From positions 2,356,001-2,420,000 of the forward strand of contig NC_015177.1 of NCBI RefSeq assembly GCF_000190735.1: a stretch of DNA of 64,000 bases, written 5' to 3'. The notes beneath the pieces were generated by a model. It searched no databases. It saw only the letters and a program-made list of their open reading frames with translations, and was not told the DNA's origin. This document shows, piece by piece, positions 15,850 to 25,687 of this stretch (position 1 is the first letter of the stretch; each line of letters opens with the position of its first letter). Source of the DNA: Pseudopedobacter saltans DSM 12145 (lineage in GTDB: Bacteria; Bacteroidota; Bacteroidia; Sphingobacteriales; Sphingobacteriaceae). The translations under genes and the position numbers were made by a program.

Positions 15850-16710
15850 TTAGAAACGATATCCCACAACAACATCGAAAATTCCTCCACTAAATCCTCT
15901 AAGGTGTTTTGGCTCCGAATTATACATTGCCGAAACATTCAGCTTATTTTGGTACAGATACCCCATTCCACCAGTAAAGCTGCTATTACTGTGATACATG
16001 GTATAAAATCGCATCATATCTGCTTTCCATTCCGCTGCAACATCCCATTGATTTTTGTAGTTTTTAATACCTCTGTATGCTATAAGTGGCTTTACACCAA
16101 AAGTCTCATCAAAATCAATCTTATAACTTGCAGAACTGTAGAATGTACTATAATCTACGGTTGATATTTTACTGTACCTTTTTTCATTCAAACTCAGGTA
16201 ACTAAACTGCCCCTCAAAACCTTTGTAACGATATGTTATCCCCATGTTTCCATCAAGATAGTTTTCTTTATCATTGTACCTGGCCAGCTCAATATCGTTC
16301 ATCCCTGCCTGCGAAGCCCGCCCATAATCCAGACGGTCTTGAGACCAACTTAAGGAAACACCAAAACGAAGGCTATGACCCTCGCTAAAGGGAACCTTAT
16401 AGGAAAAGGATCCCATTGCCTGTGTCTTCCGAATAAGTCCTGCTTTGTCATTAGATACATTCAGTCCTACAGAAGCATTGCCCTTTAAAGGTATTGCTGC
16501 TGTAAACGACATGATAACGGGTGCTCCGTCTATCTTATTCCACTGGTTTGAGTAATTAGAAAAAATCTCCGCCCTGCCATGGTTTCCTGCCATTGCAGGA
16601 TTTATCAAATATTCATTCTGAAAGTACTGACTTTTTAATGGGTTCAACTGTGCCTTTGAAGCACTCCCTATTGTTGTCAGTAATAATATTATCGGTATAT
16701 ATCTTTTCAT
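15850..16710 (-). CDS. PorP/SprF-family type IX secretion outer-membrane protein
   Basis: Outer-membrane beta-barrel protein of the PorP/SprF family, which helps export or anchor proteins with gliding-type C-terminal signals. A signal peptide (MKRYIPIILLLTTIGSASKAQ) is followed by the family opening QYFQNEYLINPAMAGNHGRAEIFSNYSNQWNKIDGAPV. Alternating beta strands run to a C-terminal aromatic residue (VVGYRF), as barrel proteins do. It is 286 residues. It lies 105 bp downstream of the giant CHU_C-tailed protein on the same strand. Such paired organisation is common in Bacteroidota and suggests that this protein serves that one substrate. Confidence 0.93.
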   Translation of the reverse strand: MKRYIPIILLLTTIGSASKAQLNPLKSQYFQNEYLINPAMAGNHGRAEIFSNYSNQWNKIDGAPVIMSFTAAIPLKGNASVGLNVSNDKAGLIRKTQAMGSFSYKVPFSEGHSLRFGVSLSWSQDRLDYGRASQAGMNDIELARYNDKENYLDGNMGITYRYKGFEGQFSYLSLNEKRYSKISTVDYSTFYSSASYKIDFDETFGVKPLIAYRGIKNYKNQWDVAAEWKADMMRFYTMYHSNSSFTGGMGYLYQNKLNVSAMYNSEPKHLRGFSGGIFDVVVGYRF

Positions 16711-16815: not shown

Positions 16816-19800
16816 CTATTTGCTTCTCACTATCGTTATAAATCCTTTCGCCATTTTCAGGTTCGGTTGGTTCTGGTCGAAACGGATAATGTAATAATAC
16901 GTTCCTTCCGCCAAAGGCTGACCATTTAGAGTGCCATTCCAATCATTCTGATAATTCCTGACAGCATAAACAATTTTACCAGATCGGTCTACTATCGTTA
17001 AGGTGTGATCCGGATAAGCATCTATATTATTAATCACCCAGGTATCATTTACCCCATCGCCATTCGGGGTAATAAAATTTTCCGCCGCTATAGCCAAATA
17101 GTCATCTTCCACTTCAACAGTAAAACTTGATATCGTTTCGCATCCTGAAGAATTCCTTACAGCAACAGAATAAGTCGTCGTCACCATAGGCCGTACACTA
17201 AGCACAGCACTGTTTTGTCCGGAAACAACTCCGGAAGCAGGCGACCATATATAAGTAATACCATTATCGCTATTCACAGTCAGATTCGCTATTTCTCCCT
17301 TACTTATCTTATTTCCCCTATCGCTTGTAATAACATTCTTCGGTAAAGAATTTATCCTTAATTGAAATATTCGCTTTACCTCGTCTATACCACCGTTATC
17401 TGTTCCCCCATTATCCTTAACAGCTACGGTTATAAGCACCACACCACTTTTATTTTCTGCTACCCTGTAACGTATTTGCCCATTATTAATTTCCAATAGC
17501 GACAATAGATCAGGGTTATTACCAGATACATTTAGCGTTACCTGTTGCCAACTTTCAGGACCAGGTGTAATACCGGTAAGGTTGATTCGCTGTTCGATAG
17601 TATTATAACATATTTCCTGATCATTTATAAAATCAATAGTTGGAGCCTCATTAACATCTTTTAAATTGACGATAAACTCCTTTTCTAACCAAAAGCCATG
17701 TTGTGTAGTACTGCGTACCCTAATAAAGTATGTTTGCTTTTGCTCGTAATCCAACAAGGCTAGTGTTTTTAACTGATTTCCGTCAAAAATAAATTTACCA
17801 TTATCTTCTCCACCTTGCCCCGCAACCAAACTATAATTAAAAGTAGCCGTGGGATCCTCCGATGTACTGCTAAAACTTCCTGAAACAGTCCCTTTCGGAC
17901 TATTTTCATAAAGAGATATCTCTGTGAAGAAAATATTTGTAGGCCCACCAGGTTTCACTTTCAATATTCCCGGCTGATAGCTAATATTATAGTTATCTCC
18001 CATTGCACTACTTACCAGGATGGGATAATCTGCAATAGGGCTATTATTGTCTGCCGAAGTAGAAACTATTGGCTGGCTGGTTAGTACATTTTCATTTTCT
18101 CCATTCACGAAACCACTATATGTAATAGTTAGAATAGGATTTACTGTTCCTACAAATTTTTCTTTATTATCTACAGTAATAGTTAATGGAGCCTTAGCTA
18201 CCGTCAGGGTTGATTCGATTGTAGTTTCAGTAAAATAGCTATGCGCTGCCTGTTTGGCCGTAATTTTTACTATGCCCGATTTAAGAATAGTTACTTTATT
18301 CCCATTTACAGAAGCTACAGCAGGATTGTTACTGACATAAGTAAATGTACCGTCTGTATTATTGCTACCCGGTTGGCTTAAAGTAAATACTGCATCACCA
18401 TAAGTTTTATTAATGTTCGCAAAATTCTTAAGAATTGCAGGACCACTTACTGTAATGTCAAATTGCTGAGAAGTACTACCCACAGTGTTACTTGCTTTAA
18501 GTGCTACCGGATTGATACCAACATCAGTTATTCCCGGTGTGCCGGTTAGGGTAATACCTTGTGTAATCTTACGAATTCTGTGGTTGCTCCATTCGGCTAC
18601 ATAGATATTACCAGACATATCAAGAGCAATACCCACAGGCCCCCAAAACTGTGCTTCTTCTTTCGTACCGTCACGATTCCCTTGTACTCCTTTGCCGGCA
18701 ACTGTACTTACTTCCCCAGCAGGTGTAATCTTGCGAATCCGATGATTTGAACTTTCCGATACATAAATATTATCAGATGCATCCATAACCATAGCTTGTG
18801 GAGAATTAAACATTGCCGACGTACCTGGCCCATCTGCATAACCTGCCGTACCATTTCCCGCAAATGTGCTTACAGTACCATTAGGAGTAATCTTACGGAT
18901 ATAATTCGACGATTCAGACACATAAACGTTCCCTAAGGCATCTGTAATAATTCCAGTCGGGCGATTAAATCTGGCCAAAACTCCAACACCATCGGCATAG
19001 CCAGCTGTACCATTTCCCGCAAACGTACTGACCGTACCATTTGGAGTTATTTTACGGATACTATGATTTAAATCATCCGCAATGTATATATTACCCCATG
19101 GGTCTATTGCTATTCCAGTTGGTTTATTAAAACTTGCCGCAGTCCCAACGCCATTACTATTGCCGTTGGTTCCACTACCTGCGATAGTGCTTACCAATCC
19201 CTGGGGTGTTATTTTACGGATACGACTTGCTCCTCTCTCTGCTATATAAATATTTCCCGAAGCATCAATTGCCATCCCCTGAGGGCCATTAAATTTAGCT
19301 GCCGTACCTATTCCGTCAGCGTATCCAAAAGTACTGCCTGCAAAAGTACTTACTTGTCCATCAGCTGTAATTTTACGGATTAAGCTATTGCCATATTCAG
19401 CTACATAAATATTTCCTTCTGCATCTGCTACTACTCCTGCAGGGGTGTCAAATTGGGCTTCAATTCCTTTACCATTAACCACTCCCTTTGTACTCCCAGC
19501 CAAAGTACTAACGTTTATCCCTGTATTTAATGCGAGCCAGGAAGGTAAGTCCTCTGCTACAATAGTTGTTTCCAAACCGCCTTCTTTTGTTGCTGTTACA
19601 GAATAGCTATAGGATTGATTATATGTAGCCTCAGTTACAGGTGTACTGGTAAAAGATGGCTTGTTATTTATGGTCAGTTCAGCTGTTATGCTGCTTTCTG
19701 TATAATATTGATAAGCTTCCTGTGTGGCGGTAATGGTAACTTTTCCCGTTTTATGAATGGTAACCATATTCCCGGAAACAGAAGCTATTGTTGGATCACT

Positions 19801-22125
19801 ACTACTATAGGTAATTATACCTCCCTTGTTATTACTTTGCGGGGCAGTCAATGCAAAAGGTGCATCGCCGTATATTTTGGAAATATCAGAAAAACCGCTT
19901 AATGTTGCCGGACCGCTTACAGTGATATCAAATTCCTGTATAGTACTGCCTGCATCATTACTAGCCTTTAATCTTACAGAATGAATACCGATATCATCTG
20001 TTTTGGGCGTTCCGGTTAAGAATGTACCCGATTCATTTTTATAAATTTCAAAATTACTAACCGTGGTAAAAACAATCCCCTGATCACTAATAACCAAATC
20101 AATTACAGCATCTTCTGTATAAATTTGTTCAGAAACAGATAAATCCGCAGAATATTTAGTTACACCTGTAGCATCTGCTAAATAGAATACTCCATTCTCA
20201 TCTATCTCTACATCATTGTATGCCTTTGTCAGAACAGTTGTAACCATACTACCATTATAACTAGCCAATCTCGCATTAGGCGAACTTTCCGAGAAATAAA
20301 GCGTACCTGCTCCATTAAAGGCAAACCCTTTAATAGTGGCACCCGGTAAATCTAAAAAGGTCTCATATGTTTTGTTACTTGTGTTAATTTTTATGATTTT
20401 GTCTTTCACAGACGCATAAAGTTCGCCCTTATAAACTTTCAGGTTATAAACACCACTCAGGTTGGTGAGAACATTTTCTTCTGCTGCATATTGCGGATTA
20501 CTCAGGGGGATCCTTGTAATTTTAGCTTCATTTACCCTGCTTATATATAAATACCCATTATATACTTCCATACTTCTCACCATTCCCAGGTTTTTATTTC
20601 CCACTGGCCCTATCTGTCCATTAGATTTATTAATTTTTTCAATGCCATAATATTCGTATGAAGCTATATAAATATTTCCTTCATTATCTTTTGCCATGGC
20701 ACAAAGCTGCTCTGAAGACGTCGCTATTAATGACAAGCCTCTTTTTTTCTCAAGATTTAACCAAGAAGGTAAGTTCTCTGCTACAATAGTTGTTTCCAAA
20801 CCGTCTTCTTTTGTTGCTGTTACAGAATAGCTATAAGATTGATGATATTTAGCCTCAGTTACAGGTGTACTGGTAAAAGATGGCTTGTTACTAACTTTCA
20901 AATTCCGTTTAACAGGTACCGCAGCTAAATAATCATCATTCCCCTGTTGTGTTGCCGTAATTTCTGTAGTTCCTGTCCCTACAATTGTTAGTATATTTCC
21001 GGTTACGGTAGCTACGTTTGTATTACTACTGCTATAACTCACCGATAAGCCGGAAGAACTTGTGGCCGAAAGTGTAACCGGGCCATCTCCAACTTTATAT
21101 GCAGGAAATTCGTTAAATGTAATGGTTTGCGGGGTTTTGGGAGAAGGTGGAGTATAAGTCATTACCCGATTAGTGCCATTCTGAGATACTGCCACAAACT
21201 TACCATTTCCATAGGTAACAGAATACCATGCATTGCCAAGATCAGACATGGTCAGCTCTGTCCATGTCACACCATCAGTACTGGTCATCGATTGACCAAC
21301 ACCTACCACTACAAATCTGCCATTGCTATAAACAATACCCCACCAACCAGAAGAAATACCTCCCGTACTTACTGTAGTCCACGTCGTACCATCAGTACTG
21401 GTCATTACCCGGTTGGTACCACTATTGGCTACCGCTACAAACCTACCATTTCCGTAGGTAACAGAACGCCATGTGGTTACTTCAGTTGCTGCAGCTACCG
21501 TCCATGTAACCCCGTCAGAACTGCTCATTACCCGATGAGTACCCTTATTGGCTACTGCCACAAACTTGTCACCACCATAGGTAACAGAAGACCACTCGCC
21601 CGATGCTGGGGTTGTGCGAAGAGTCCAGACAATACCATCCGGACTGCTCATCACAGCACCAGTCGCAGATACCGCTACGAATTTACCATTGCCATAAACA
21701 ACAGATTTCCAATCACTATTTTTCGCCGCTGTTCTGGGCGTCCAGTTAATCCCGTCAGGGCTGGTCATTACCCCATAAAAACCATCCATAGCTACAGCAA
21801 CAAACTGACCACCTCCATAAGTTACAGACATCCACAAATTTGCTTCCACAGCAGTTTGAACTGTCCAGTTTATCCCATCCGGACTGGTCATTACCCGATG
21901 GGTACCATTAGCGGCTACTGCCACAAATGTTTCGTTGCCATAGGCAACAGAACGCCATTCATTATTATCTTCGGGTGCTGCATGGGATATCCAATCACTA
22001 TCGCCCGCAGCTGTTGCTCTGGGTTGTAAAAGAGTTAATAAACAAACCAACAATATTCCTATCCGAGATTTGTAAATCCACAGGTATTGGTCGTTCCTAA
22101 AAAAAGAAATATATAGCTTCTTCAT
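16816..22125 (-). CDS. Giant secreted multi-propeller protein with type IX (CHU_C) tail
   Basis: A 1769-residue secreted or surface protein. Signal segment about 1-40. Residues 41-332: seven repeats of about 41 residues (WxSVTYGNGKFVAVA...RVMTSPDGxTWT), probably a seven-bladed propeller. About 333-415: bacterial Ig-like domain. About 416-463 and 703-739: two halves of a putative-Ig (He_PIG-like) domain split by a second propeller-like region (464-702). About 740-823: Ig-like. About 824-869 and 1191-1229: a second split He_PIG-like domain enclosing six NHL repeats (870-1190). Ig-like, MBG-like and cadherin-like domains follow. The end (about 1685-1769, NFITPNGDGVNDTWVI to GFITIVRSK) is the gliding-motility CHU_C sorting domain. 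No enzyme motif is visible; a binding or adhesin role is inferred. The PorP/SprF gene lies downstream. Confidence 0.9.
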   Translation of the reverse strand: MKKLYISFFRNDQYLWIYKSRIGILLVCLLTLLQPRATAAGDSDWISHAAPEDNNEWRSVAYGNETFVAVAANGTHRVMTSPDGINWTVQTAVEANLWMSVTYGGGQFVAVAMDGFYGVMTSPDGINWTPRTAAKNSDWKSVVYGNGKFVAVSATGAVMSSPDGIVWTLRTTPASGEWSSVTYGGDKFVAVANKGTHRVMSSSDGVTWTVAAATEVTTWRSVTYGNGRFVAVANSGTNRVMTSTDGTTWTTVSTGGISSGWWGIVYSNGRFVVVGVGQSMTSTDGVTWTELTMSDLGNAWYSVTYGNGKFVAVSQNGTNRVMTYTPPSPKTPQTITFNEFPAYKVGDGPVTLSATSSSGLSVSYSSSNTNVATVTGNILTIVGTGTTEITATQQGNDDYLAAVPVKRNLKVSNKPSFTSTPVTEAKYHQSYSYSVTATKEDGLETTIVAENLPSWLNLEKKRGLSLIATSSEQLCAMAKDNEGNIYIASYEYYGIEKINKSNGQIGPVGNKNLGMVRSMEVYNGYLYISRVNEAKITRIPLSNPQYAAEENVLTNLSGVYNLKVYKGELYASVKDKIIKINTSNKTYETFLDLPGATIKGFAFNGAGTLYFSESSPNARLASYNGSMVTTVLTKAYNDVEIDENGVFYLADATGVTKYSADLSVSEQIYTEDAVIDLVISDQGIVFTTVSNFEIYKNESGTFLTGTPKTDDIGIHSVRLKASNDAGSTIQEFDITVSGPATLSGFSDISKIYGDAPFALTAPQSNNKGGIITYSSSDPTIASVSGNMVTIHKTGKVTITATQEAYQYYTESSITAELTINNKPSFTSTPVTEATYNQSYSYSVTATKEGGLETTIVAEDLPSWLALNTGINVSTLAGSTKGVVNGKGIEAQFDTPAGVVADAEGNIYVAEYGNSLIRKITADGQVSTFAGSTFGYADGIGTAAKFNGPQGMAIDASGNIYIAERGASRIRKITPQGLVSTIAGSGTNGNSNGVGTAASFNKPTGIAIDPWGNIYIADDLNHSIRKITPNGTVSTFAGNGTAGYADGVGVLARFNRPTGIITDALGNVYVSESSNYIRKITPNGTVSTFAGNGTAGYADGPGTSAMFNSPQAMVMDASDNIYVSESSNHRIRKITPAGEVSTVAGKGVQGNRDGTKEEAQFWGPVGIALDMSGNIYVAEWSNHRIRKITQGITLTGTPGITDVGINPVALKASNTVGSTSQQFDITVSGPAILKNFANINKTYGDAVFTLSQPGSNNTDGTFTYVSNNPAVASVNGNKVTILKSGIVKITAKQAAHSYFTETTIESTLTVAKAPLTITVDNKEKFVGTVNPILTITYSGFVNGENENVLTSQPIVSTSADNNSPIADYPILVSSAMGDNYNISYQPGILKVKPGGPTNIFFTEISLYENSPKGTVSGSFSSTSEDPTATFNYSLVAGQGGEDNGKFIFDGNQLKTLALLDYEQKQTYFIRVRSTTQHGFWLEKEFIVNLKDVNEAPTIDFINDQEICYNTIEQRINLTGITPGPESWQQVTLNVSGNNPDLLSLLEINNGQIRYRVAENKSGVVLITVAVKDNGGTDNGGIDEVKRIFQLRINSLPKNVITSDRGNKISKGEIANLTVNSDNGITYIWSPASGVVSGQNSAVLSVRPMVTTTYSVAVRNSSGCETISSFTVEVEDDYLAIAAENFITPNGDGVNDTWVINNIDAYPDHTLTIVDRSGKIVYAVRNYQNDWNGTLNGQPLAEGTYYYIIRFDQNQPNLKMAKGFITIVRSK
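19537..19665. repeat. Direct repeat copy 1 inside the giant gene
   Basis: About 129 bp nearly identical to 20761-20889, encoding the N-terminal half of the second split putative-Ig domain. The few differences are scattered single bases, which points to recent duplication or gene conversion. Confidence 0.85.
20761..20889. repeat. Direct repeat copy 2 inside the giant gene
   Basis: Partner of 19537-19665, encoding the N-terminal half of the first split putative-Ig domain (FTSTPVTEAKYHQSYSYSV). Spacing between copies is about 1.2 kb. Confidence 0.85.
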
Positions 22126-22846: not shown

Positions 22847-25687
22847 TTAATTCTTGCCTTCAAAAACTAACGATATATAATACATACCTCCTATAGATGG
22901 GTTTCCAACAGAAGTAACATAGTATTTATTCAATAAGTTAGCTCCTCCAATCTTCAATATCGAACGATAAGCAGGTAATTTGAAACTAAGCTGTGCATCC
23001 AAAGTACCGTATGCAGGCACTTCTCCAGAAGCAAATGCAGAACGCCATATAAATTGATCCTGCCAGCGATAAGTCAGGTTAAAATCAGTATTCCTTATAA
23101 TCTCATTCCCTCCCACACCTGCATTAAATTTGTAGGCTGGGGTGTTATAGGTATTAAAAAACTTATCAGGCATTTTACTTAATTTATCCTGGGCGACATT
23201 AGCCATCCATTTTAACTTTTTCCAGTTATATTCCATGCCCAAAGCCCAACCCTGTGCTTTTACCGGCTCCTGAACGTTTACTGTTGTTTCATACCGTACT
23301 GGAGACATTAACCCGGTTGGATTCCCCGGAGTTGGATTTTGCCAAAGAATAGCTGCAGTTAAAAAGTCTCGATAGTTATTGTAATAATAAGAAGCATCCA
23401 GATGCAAAGCACTTGTTAATAATGCCCTGTATCCTATTTCGTAAACCTGCACCTTTTCAGGTTTAAAAACAGAAAAGGTAAAATTCTCTAAAACTGACGG
23501 GTTACTATAGCCACTTTCTACATAAGCTCTGTAACTTAAATCTGTATAAGGCTTATTGGTTTTCAGCTCATATTTATCCAATAACTGCGGCAATGCACCT
23601 ACTAAACGTGAACCAGCCCGAACGAGCAAATCTATGTACTGAGACTGTGCTGTCGGATTCCTGAACCCGGATTGGTAAGAGAAACGGAAATAGTGATTTT
23701 TACTCAAATTCCAAACTGCCGCCACTCTCGGAGATAAGAAACCACTAAAATTCTCACTTTTATCATAACGAATAGAGGTTACAAATTTAAGTTTCTCATC
23801 AAAGAATTTCTTAGTCCCCTGAACATAGGCGCCATATTCGGCAATAGTTAGCTTTTTATTGAGGTCATCAAACAGCGTACCTCCCGAATTCAAATCATAT
23901 AATCTGTAAGAAGCGCCTGCAATTAAGTCGACCGCAGAAATTAGCCCCGACAGATTGTACATGCCTTCATAATGCCATAAATTAGTTTTATCGTTAAATT
24001 TCGCACCTCCCTGTGCCCCTATTGTCCGTGATGCTATATCTTGTTTTGCCTGGATAAATTCTTCTGATCCTGGGACAAATCTGCCATTATCTGCTGTTGA
24101 ACGAGCGGTTAAATGTGCTTGAGTCTCATCTTGTCCCATTTTTCGGCCTGCCAGATATGCGCCTACATATTGTGGAAACCAAGCAGTACTTGGTTTAGAA
24201 CGCTCATTAATCAAAGAAGCTAATGCCGTAGTGTTATAGGCATCTCCCGATCTTTCTTGCGTTGTATAAGCTCTTAAAAAAAATCTGTTCCCTTTTAGTT
24301 CTAATTTATATTGCCCGATATTAAAATTTTTCAAAGAATAACGATCGGCCCCTGTATATACAGATGTTCCCGTCCCCCAATAAGCCTGTGCACTGGCCTC
24401 AATATCTTTTCTGATTTTATAGTTGAAAGACCCGCTCGTTCTGAAACTACTTGTATTATAATCCACCAAATCATTTTCCAGATATCCGGTTCGGGAAACA
24501 TCCTGATTCGGTATAATCCCATTCTGAAGACCCAAATAAAAAGGGCTTACCGATGGCATTACACTTAAAAATCCCTGAATTTGAGCATCATAAGGCGTAG
24601 ACCCTGTTGCCGACTCGTATTCCTTAATATATGCCTGCCTGGCTGTACCAACAACAGCCTGAGCTACATTTCTCATATTAACCTTAATTTCGTCGCCGTA
24701 TACATTGATTCCATCATAGGCCGGGTCACTGCTTCTATCCCCAACTTTGCCAAGCATACCGGTTCGATCATAATTGGATTGATCCAGAGCCTTCCAGTCA
24801 TCGGCTTGCAAATAGGAAAAGTTCACTTTAAACGCTAGTTTGCTATTTAATGCCTTTGCATAGCGAACTTGTACATCATTCCAGTTTGCCACACCCTGCT
24901 GGCTTTTGTCAATATGATTAATTCCTGTTTTTAATTGCACACTCAGTCCCTGATGGATAAACGGACTTTTAGAGTTCAGTAATAAAGTTCCATTTATTCC
25001 GCCAGCACCATATAATGCCGATGAAGAACCCGGAATCAACTCTGCACTTTCCAGATCCAGATCTGTTATTCCTGCTATATTACCCACCGAAAAATTTAAA
25101 CCGGGAGCCTGATTATCCATTCCGTCTAAAAACTGGTTGAATCTCACATTTCCATTTGCGTTAAACCCTCTAGTATTTAAAGATTTGAAGGTAAAACTTT
25201 GTGTACTTTGCTCAACGCCTTTCAGATTTACCAATCCATCATAAAAAGAAGTAGCCGCCGTCTTTTTGATATCTTCTATTGAAATACGTTCGATAGAAAC
25301 CGGCGATTCCAAAATACGTTCAGGAATTCGGGATGCGGAAACCACTATTTCATTACCGAGTATATGCTGTACACTTAATGCAGCAATTATCGGTGTATTT
25401 TGGTTTTTCACTACAAATTCCTCCGGCACATAGCCTAAAAAAGATACCTGTAGCTGTAAGGGTAAAGATGCTGCAATATGTAAACTAAAGCTGCCGTCTT
25501 GATTAGTAACTGTTCTCTTACTATAGCCCTTAACAGCTACCAGAGCACCGCCGATAGGATCTTTACTCACTTTATCAAATACACGGCCTTTAATTGTAAT
25601 GGACTCCTGAGCAAACGATAACTGATTCTGAAATAAAATAAAAATAGATAGGTAAATGGGTAAAATATACTTTCTATAAGCGTTCAA
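22847..25687 (-). CDS. TonB-dependent receptor with carboxypeptidase-regulatory domain
   Basis: Outer-membrane active transporter energised by TonB-ExbBD. The start appears to be TTG (MNAYRKYILPIY); a signal peptide ends near FAQ. Residues about 30-115 form a carboxypeptidase-regulatory-like (CarboxypepD_reg) domain (IKGRVFDKVSKDPIGGALVAV). The plug (about 120-240) contains LNTRGFNANGNVRFNQFLDGMDNQAPGLNF and ELIPGSSSALYGAGGINGTLLL. The rest is the 22-strand barrel ending in SLVFEGKN. There is no SusD partner next to it, so this is not a typical starch-type pair; siderophore, metal-complex or peptide substrates are possible. A membrane-linked AraC regulator lies 180 bp upstream on the same strand and may control it. 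Confidence 0.93.
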   Translation of the reverse strand: MNAYRKYILPIYLSIFILFQNQLSFAQESITIKGRVFDKVSKDPIGGALVAVKGYSKRTVTNQDGSFSLHIAASLPLQLQVSFLGYVPEEFVVKNQNTPIIAALSVQHILGNEIVVSASRIPERILESPVSIERISIEDIKKTAATSFYDGLVNLKGVEQSTQSFTFKSLNTRGFNANGNVRFNQFLDGMDNQAPGLNFSVGNIAGITDLDLESAELIPGSSSALYGAGGINGTLLLNSKSPFIHQGLSVQLKTGINHIDKSQQGVANWNDVQVRYAKALNSKLAFKVNFSYLQADDWKALDQSNYDRTGMLGKVGDRSSDPAYDGINVYGDEIKVNMRNVAQAVVGTARQAYIKEYESATGSTPYDAQIQGFLSVMPSVSPFYLGLQNGIIPNQDVSRTGYLENDLVDYNTSSFRTSGSFNYKIRKDIEASAQAYWGTGTSVYTGADRYSLKNFNIGQYKLELKGNRFFLRAYTTQERSGDAYNTTALASLINERSKPSTAWFPQYVGAYLAGRKMGQDETQAHLTARSTADNGRFVPGSEEFIQAKQDIASRTIGAQGGAKFNDKTNLWHYEGMYNLSGLISAVDLIAGASYRLYDLNSGGTLFDDLNKKLTIAEYGAYVQGTKKFFDEKLKFVTSIRYDKSENFSGFLSPRVAAVWNLSKNHYFRFSYQSGFRNPTAQSQYIDLLVRAGSRLVGALPQLLDKYELKTNKPYTDLSYRAYVESGYSNPSVLENFTFSVFKPEKVQVYEIGYRALLTSALHLDASYYYNNYRDFLTAAILWQNPTPGNPTGLMSPVRYETTVNVQEPVKAQGWALGMEYNWKKLKWMANVAQDKLSKMPDKFFNTYNTPAYKFNAGVGGNEIIRNTDFNLTYRWQDQFIWRSAFASGEVPAYGTLDAQLSFKLPAYRSILKIGGANLLNKYYVTSVGNPSIGGMYYISLVFEGKN

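Follow-up and report, generated by a model that had tools for sequence, protein, structure and literature searches.

Beta-propellers built of NHL repeats (PF01436) are known from the teneurin NHL domain, SOQ1, NHLRC2 and TRIM71, and in several solved proteins such a propeller shares one chain with an Ig-like domain: 4hw6, which has an IPT/TIG domain, 3hrp, whose Ig-like domain we take to be IPT/TIG as well, and the Lin41 filamin-NHL protein 6fpt. The best NHL match reaches the end of the chain in all three (residues 277-406 of 409 in 3hrp, 277-432 of 433 in 4hw6 and 287-406 of 409 in 6fpt), so that, from the match ranges alone, the Ig domain stands in line with the propeller and is not split. 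The integrin beta subunit, in contrast, carries its betaI domain inserted in an Ig-like hybrid domain. This is the same principle as in the He_PIG host described below, an Ig fold with a whole domain in a loop; the inserted fold differs, however, and the integrin is an animal protein and not a member of the family. In titles and opening lines of abstracts, from a collection with most subscription journals outside it, we found no bacterial Ig domain that harbours a nested propeller. The one phrase match, in PMC4882317, concerned in its matching part an LDLR-type propeller between EGF modules, not one nested in an Ig domain.

The locus studied here lies in a window of 64,000 nucleotides, the whole stretch of DNA that was analysed, from Pseudopedobacter saltans DSM 12145 (NC_015177.1, positions 2,356,001 to 2,420,000). 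An open reading frame at 16816-22125 on the minus strand, the strand of all features given below, encodes a secreted multidomain protein of 1769 residues that, like the solved proteins above, combines Ig-like and NHL domains in one chain. The first-pass annotation had described two putative-Ig (He_PIG, PF05345) domains that stop after LPSWL and resume hundreds of residues later at LTGTP. We locate LPSWL at aa 452-456 and 860-864, TGTP at aa 704-707 and 1194-1197, and NKPSFTSTPV at aa 413 and 821. In copy 1, the left half ending in LPSWL (aa 413-456, window 20758-20889) is separated from the right half starting with LTGTP (aa 703-739, 19909-20019) by an insert of 246 residues (aa 457-702, 20020-20757). 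In copy 2, the left half (aa 821-864, 19534-19665) and the right half (aa 1193-1229, 18439-18549) flank an insert of 328 residues (aa 865-1192, 18550-19533). The two lengths are close to the 239 and 321 residues estimated earlier. Between the split domains lies a Big_2-like domain (aa 740-820, 19666-19908), for which the best Pfam stretch is aa 760-803 and the whole protein scores 22.6 bits, just below the cut-off of 22.8.

The intact protein has no He_PIG match in Pfam at E-values up to 1. When the insert is omitted and the halves are joined, both hosts pass the cut-off of 24 bits, with 37.9 and 38.5 bits. The domain of about 90 residues is thus not contiguous in either copy and is broken between profile positions 54 and 61 by 246 and 328 residues, a break that most He_PIG matches do not show. 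The halves of copy 1 taken singly score 19.9 bits at profile positions 2-54 (left) and 15.8 bits at 61-96 (right); as they match complementary parts of the profile, a single domain is interrupted between positions 54 and 61. Joining adds little in itself, since the score is approximately the sum of the half scores, and the weight rests on the order and complementarity of the halves. In uninterrupted homologues (L125, L126, L130 and L131) LP-x-W continues to GTP within approximately 15 residues. Joined halves of relatives exceeded the He_PIG cut-off in all five cases tried, at 31.5-53.2 bits (L017, G117, G107 and G006 split at the same loop, L020 at a second loop described below). In our host model the left halves of G107 score low (6.6 and 16.0 bits), and the intact L017 protein remains below the Pfam cut-off at 18.9 bits. 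Together with the structure models below, these data support one Ig-like He_PIG domain with a propeller in its loop. The earlier reading of the two interrupted domains holds, both in the joined Pfam scores and in a break point that recurs elsewhere.

The two inserts are of different kinds. The insert of copy 2 matches Pfam NHL with 119.4 bits, above the cut-off, and contains six repeats by motif, starting at aa 892, 945, 999, 1053, 1106 and 1160; the six NHL repeats recognized earlier are therefore confirmed, as is the likeness to the described NHL propellers. According to the repeat pattern it starts with the outer strand of the last blade (VSTLAG) and ends with the third strand of the same blade (RIRKIT), so its ends should be neighbouring antiparallel strands. 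The insert of copy 1 gave no NHL match in Pfam, where OLF (14.6 bits) and Reg_prop (13.9 bits) both stayed below cut-off. By our count its AlphaFold2 model, built without homologous rows, contains five sets of four strands and further strands at the two ends, with pLDDT blocks of 58-91 over the five sets that fall to 31-56 in the last blade and at the joints. We regard it as a probable shorter propeller of another family, with six predicted blades of about 40 residues.

Comparison of the two copies shows an uneven degree of conservation. The left halves share 41 of 46 residues (89%) and 91% of their nucleotides, in line with the near identity claimed for both flanks by the first-pass annotation, whereas the right halves, with 26 of 37 residues (70%) and 68% of nucleotides, fall short of it. 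The inserts are only 26% identical (64 of 242 residues; 44% of nucleotides), and the Big domains are 34% (aa) and 48% (nt) alike before the split copies and 52% and 62% after them. The left half forms a direct repeat of 130 nt (95%, at 19537-19666 and 20761-20890), whose two ends coincide with the edges of the insert and of the domain. Gene conversion confined by the dissimilar neighbours would explain this repeat, and recombination at the conserved host halves could exchange propeller heads.

In order to follow the split in relatives we searched 201 genomes of the same family, scoring up to ten candidates per genome with a type-1 query and up to nine with an NHL-type query. Full-length split profiles at the same loop (slot A) were found in six of the 201, own genome (G000) included, and we consider slot A uncommon. 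Type-1 splits occur in G000, G006, G117 and G119, whole in G006 and G117; the two copies of G119 are cut at contig ends, so their right half is unseen. NHL-type splits occur in G000, G107 (two proteins) and G057, and a contig of a Flavobacteriaceae MAG (L017) contains three slot-A splits. In wider searches of the phylum the own genome was the only one with a full-length slot-A split, both among 296 genomes with up to seven candidates scored per genome (A1) and among 395 with up to four (A2, a profile whose best solved relatives are the teneurin-like proteins 9ifo and 9pt5). The total is ten slot-A splits in six genomes or contigs, including two (G006 and G057) whose halves the host model left unpaired and which we entered by hand. 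The search for other proteins with the same split, recommended at the outset, thus returned family genomes and L017.

It also revealed a second position. In slot B the propeller lies earlier in the He_PIG domain, between ...NTGGAVPA and GYTI..LPAGL..SGTP; this form is seen in Mucilaginibacter, Flavobacterium and many genomes of the same family. By strand order, slot A is the D-E hairpin and slot B the B-C loop. In Ig/FnIII-type sandwiches in general, these two loops lie at one pole. For a survey of splits, 923 open reading frames of at least 200 residues in the loci were reduced to 230 by removal of redundant ones and of those negative for a loose NHL motif, and were compared with host models built from twelve uninterrupted copies. 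These models detected 49 splits, 8 in slot A and 41 in slot B, or 51 (10 and 41) with the two entered by hand; the loci had been fetched with split-domain queries, so that these counts are not base rates. Inserts measure 240-328 residues in slot A and 246-364 in slot B. Counted by propeller, 140 stretches in 107 reading frames comprise 10 in slot A, 40 in slot B, 66 at the edge of a reading frame or locus and 24 that this test assigns to neither slot. By eye, some of the 24 resemble slot B (L021 at 929, L180) and others clearly do not (L026, L122). A less biased sample of 61 family genomes yielded 115 He_PIG matches in 28 genomes; 15 of them begin no earlier than profile position 31 and, by start position alone, cover the right part only, while 100 do not. 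A scan for other loops showed pieces adjoining propellers clustered at the two known positions, though an insertion in F-G would leave a right piece below the detectable length; the few outliers may reflect over-extended local alignment. At the level of sequence, the split, its two kinds of insert, its recurrence in relatives and the second loop are established, and the notion of the loop as a docking slot is strengthened, with at least two kinds of insert in the slot and a second loop that also takes propellers.

Other arrangements were observed along the way. L091 and, by eye, L098 carry uninterrupted He_PIG copies beside propeller-split ones. The own genome has further NHL-repeat matches at C1:1791032-1798931 and 101864-105880 (L002-L004 and L006-L008), in open frames of 442-653 residues, and NHL matches in G103:C2, G134:C2, G176:C1 and G031:C32 and C63 are each interrupted by a single in-frame stop and are perhaps decayed genes.

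Slot A and slot B inserts are mixed in phylogenetic trees, with five changes in 51 rows and three in 40 rows. A single clade of slot-A NHL inserts (7 of 40 rows) was not rejected (p-AU 0.267) and the bootstrap had not converged, so we do not claim repeated jumping between loops. The type-1 slot-A inserts cluster with an SH-aLRT of 97; the branch of copy 1 is long, however, and its grouping in the tree may be false. The insert of copy 2 is most like a slot-B insert, with 54% identity to L144.

We modelled both window copies with AlphaFold2 (818 residues, 7 alignment rows, copy 1 without homologous rows) and judged the packing of the Ig halves from strand strings, pLDDT and pTM rather than from coordinates. 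The model has a mean pLDDT of 77.5 and a pTM of 0.50, and comprises the two copies plus a loose linker. In blocks of ten residues, the insert of copy 2 reaches a pLDDT of at least 90 in 29 of 34 blocks, with 63-80 in the left and 67-88 in the right Ig half. In copy 1 the insert ranges from 31 to 91, lowest at the joints and last blade, and the Ig halves from 57 to 78. Across the joints of copy 2 the predicted strands are LALN / INVSTLA and RIRKITQ / ITLTG, with gaps of 2 and 1 residues, and in the low-confidence model of copy 1 a strand continues without a break through either joint (456-468 and 692-705). A joint alignment of copy 1 with L017 rows (A3) was wrong over the propeller and was discarded. 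For slot B, the model of copy 3 of L020 (18 rows) has a pLDDT of 96.9 and a pTM of 0.92 with no block below 94, and the nested arrangement of this form is predicted with confidence. The models accordingly predict a nested fold with continuous strands, and the two separate domains that would have spoken against the earlier proposal were not seen. A PDB search with a 411-residue slot-B nested model gave none with a TMq above 0.72 among the best 50 of 1635 matches (E up to 10); hence none of these covers Ig domain and propeller together.

The host protein ends in a CHU_C / T9SS type B sorting domain (aa 1681-1765, 16831-17085), which scores 91.9 bits for CHU_C and 73.1 bits for TIGR04131 (cut-off 35). 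Directly downstream lies a PorP/SprF-family gene (15850-16710, minus strand; TIGR03519, 161.9 bits, cut-off 90.55), a likely surface anchor partner. PMC9143113 reports that type B CTD proteins are bound to PorP-like partners and suggests that they are anchored in this way; the same source describes the gliding adhesin pair SprB/SprF, which like the present pair joins a type B CTD protein to a PorP-like partner. The host protein is exported by the T9SS on its CHU_C signal, and the PorP-like protein encoded next to it probably keeps it at the surface. Upstream, at 22847-25687 on the minus strand, lies a gene for a TonB-dependent receptor, which scores below cut-off with models of heme and siderophore receptors. 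At the N-terminus (aa 57-325, window 21151-21957) motif reading identifies seven W-repeats, W-x-S/G-V/I-x-Y, six of them followed by S/T-x-D-G-x-x-W-T, which we take to resemble an Asp-box; these repeats probably form a third, seven-bladed propeller of the protein.

We think it likely that each split represents a He_PIG D-E hairpin extended into a six-bladed propeller, giving a rigid, side-mounted propeller on a rod of Ig domains exported by the T9SS. As the models suggest, the two strands of the Ig hairpin would run on into the end strands of the propeller with 0-2 residues between them, and the propeller would sit sideways on a two-stranded stem. Because the chain enters and leaves at one spot, the Ig domain can remain in line with the rest of the rod. 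With T9SS export and PorP-like anchoring, the propellers would face outward, as heads for binding.

Alternatively, the halves could be separate small domains, or the repeat unit could be framed wrongly, so that the right half of copy 1 belongs with the left half that follows the Big_2-like domain in copy 2; in either case the propellers would be ordinary beads on a string. In favour of this, each half is a stretch of its own along the chain, and the intact protein lacks a He_PIG match in Pfam. This reading is nevertheless contradicted by the four uninterrupted homologues, which join left to right half directly; moreover, the halves of copy 1 fit complementary profile parts (2-54 and 61-96) and the shifted pairing orphans the first left and the last right half. 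We consider it very improbable. An assembly or gene-model artefact, for which we found no support, has a negligible chance in view of a single stop-free open frame in a one-contig genome and the recurrence of the split in independent genomes. Less remote, if still unlikely, is that the fold is indeed nested but arose neutrally through domain shuffling, with no special relation between propeller and loop and no display role. This would agree with the scarcity of slot A in the family (6/201) and with a single origin of its NHL inserts, which the tree test did not reject (p-AU 0.267); it is at odds with the two kinds of insert in slot A, the propellers of similar length in a second loop, and ten slot-A splits in six genomes or contigs, two of them placed by hand.

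A recurrent nested architecture is well supported. What is new here is that propellers are nested also, and more often, in a second He_PIG loop (41 of the 51 splits found). Tentatively, the He_PIG domain of Bacteroidota may be a two-port mount, in which the B-C and D-E loops accept at least two kinds of propeller through short strand-to-strand joins and heads are exchanged by recombination between host halves: a plug-in display system that domain scans would miss because the host domain is split. This blind spot in annotation is apparent in the intact window protein and L017, neither of which has a He_PIG match above cut-off, yet they contain five such domains together. Nested domains are already known. 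A bacterial Ig module into which whole propellers have repeatedly been inserted, and at two of its loops, would offer protein engineers a natural plug-in scaffold and help to explain how T9SS-exported proteins diversify.
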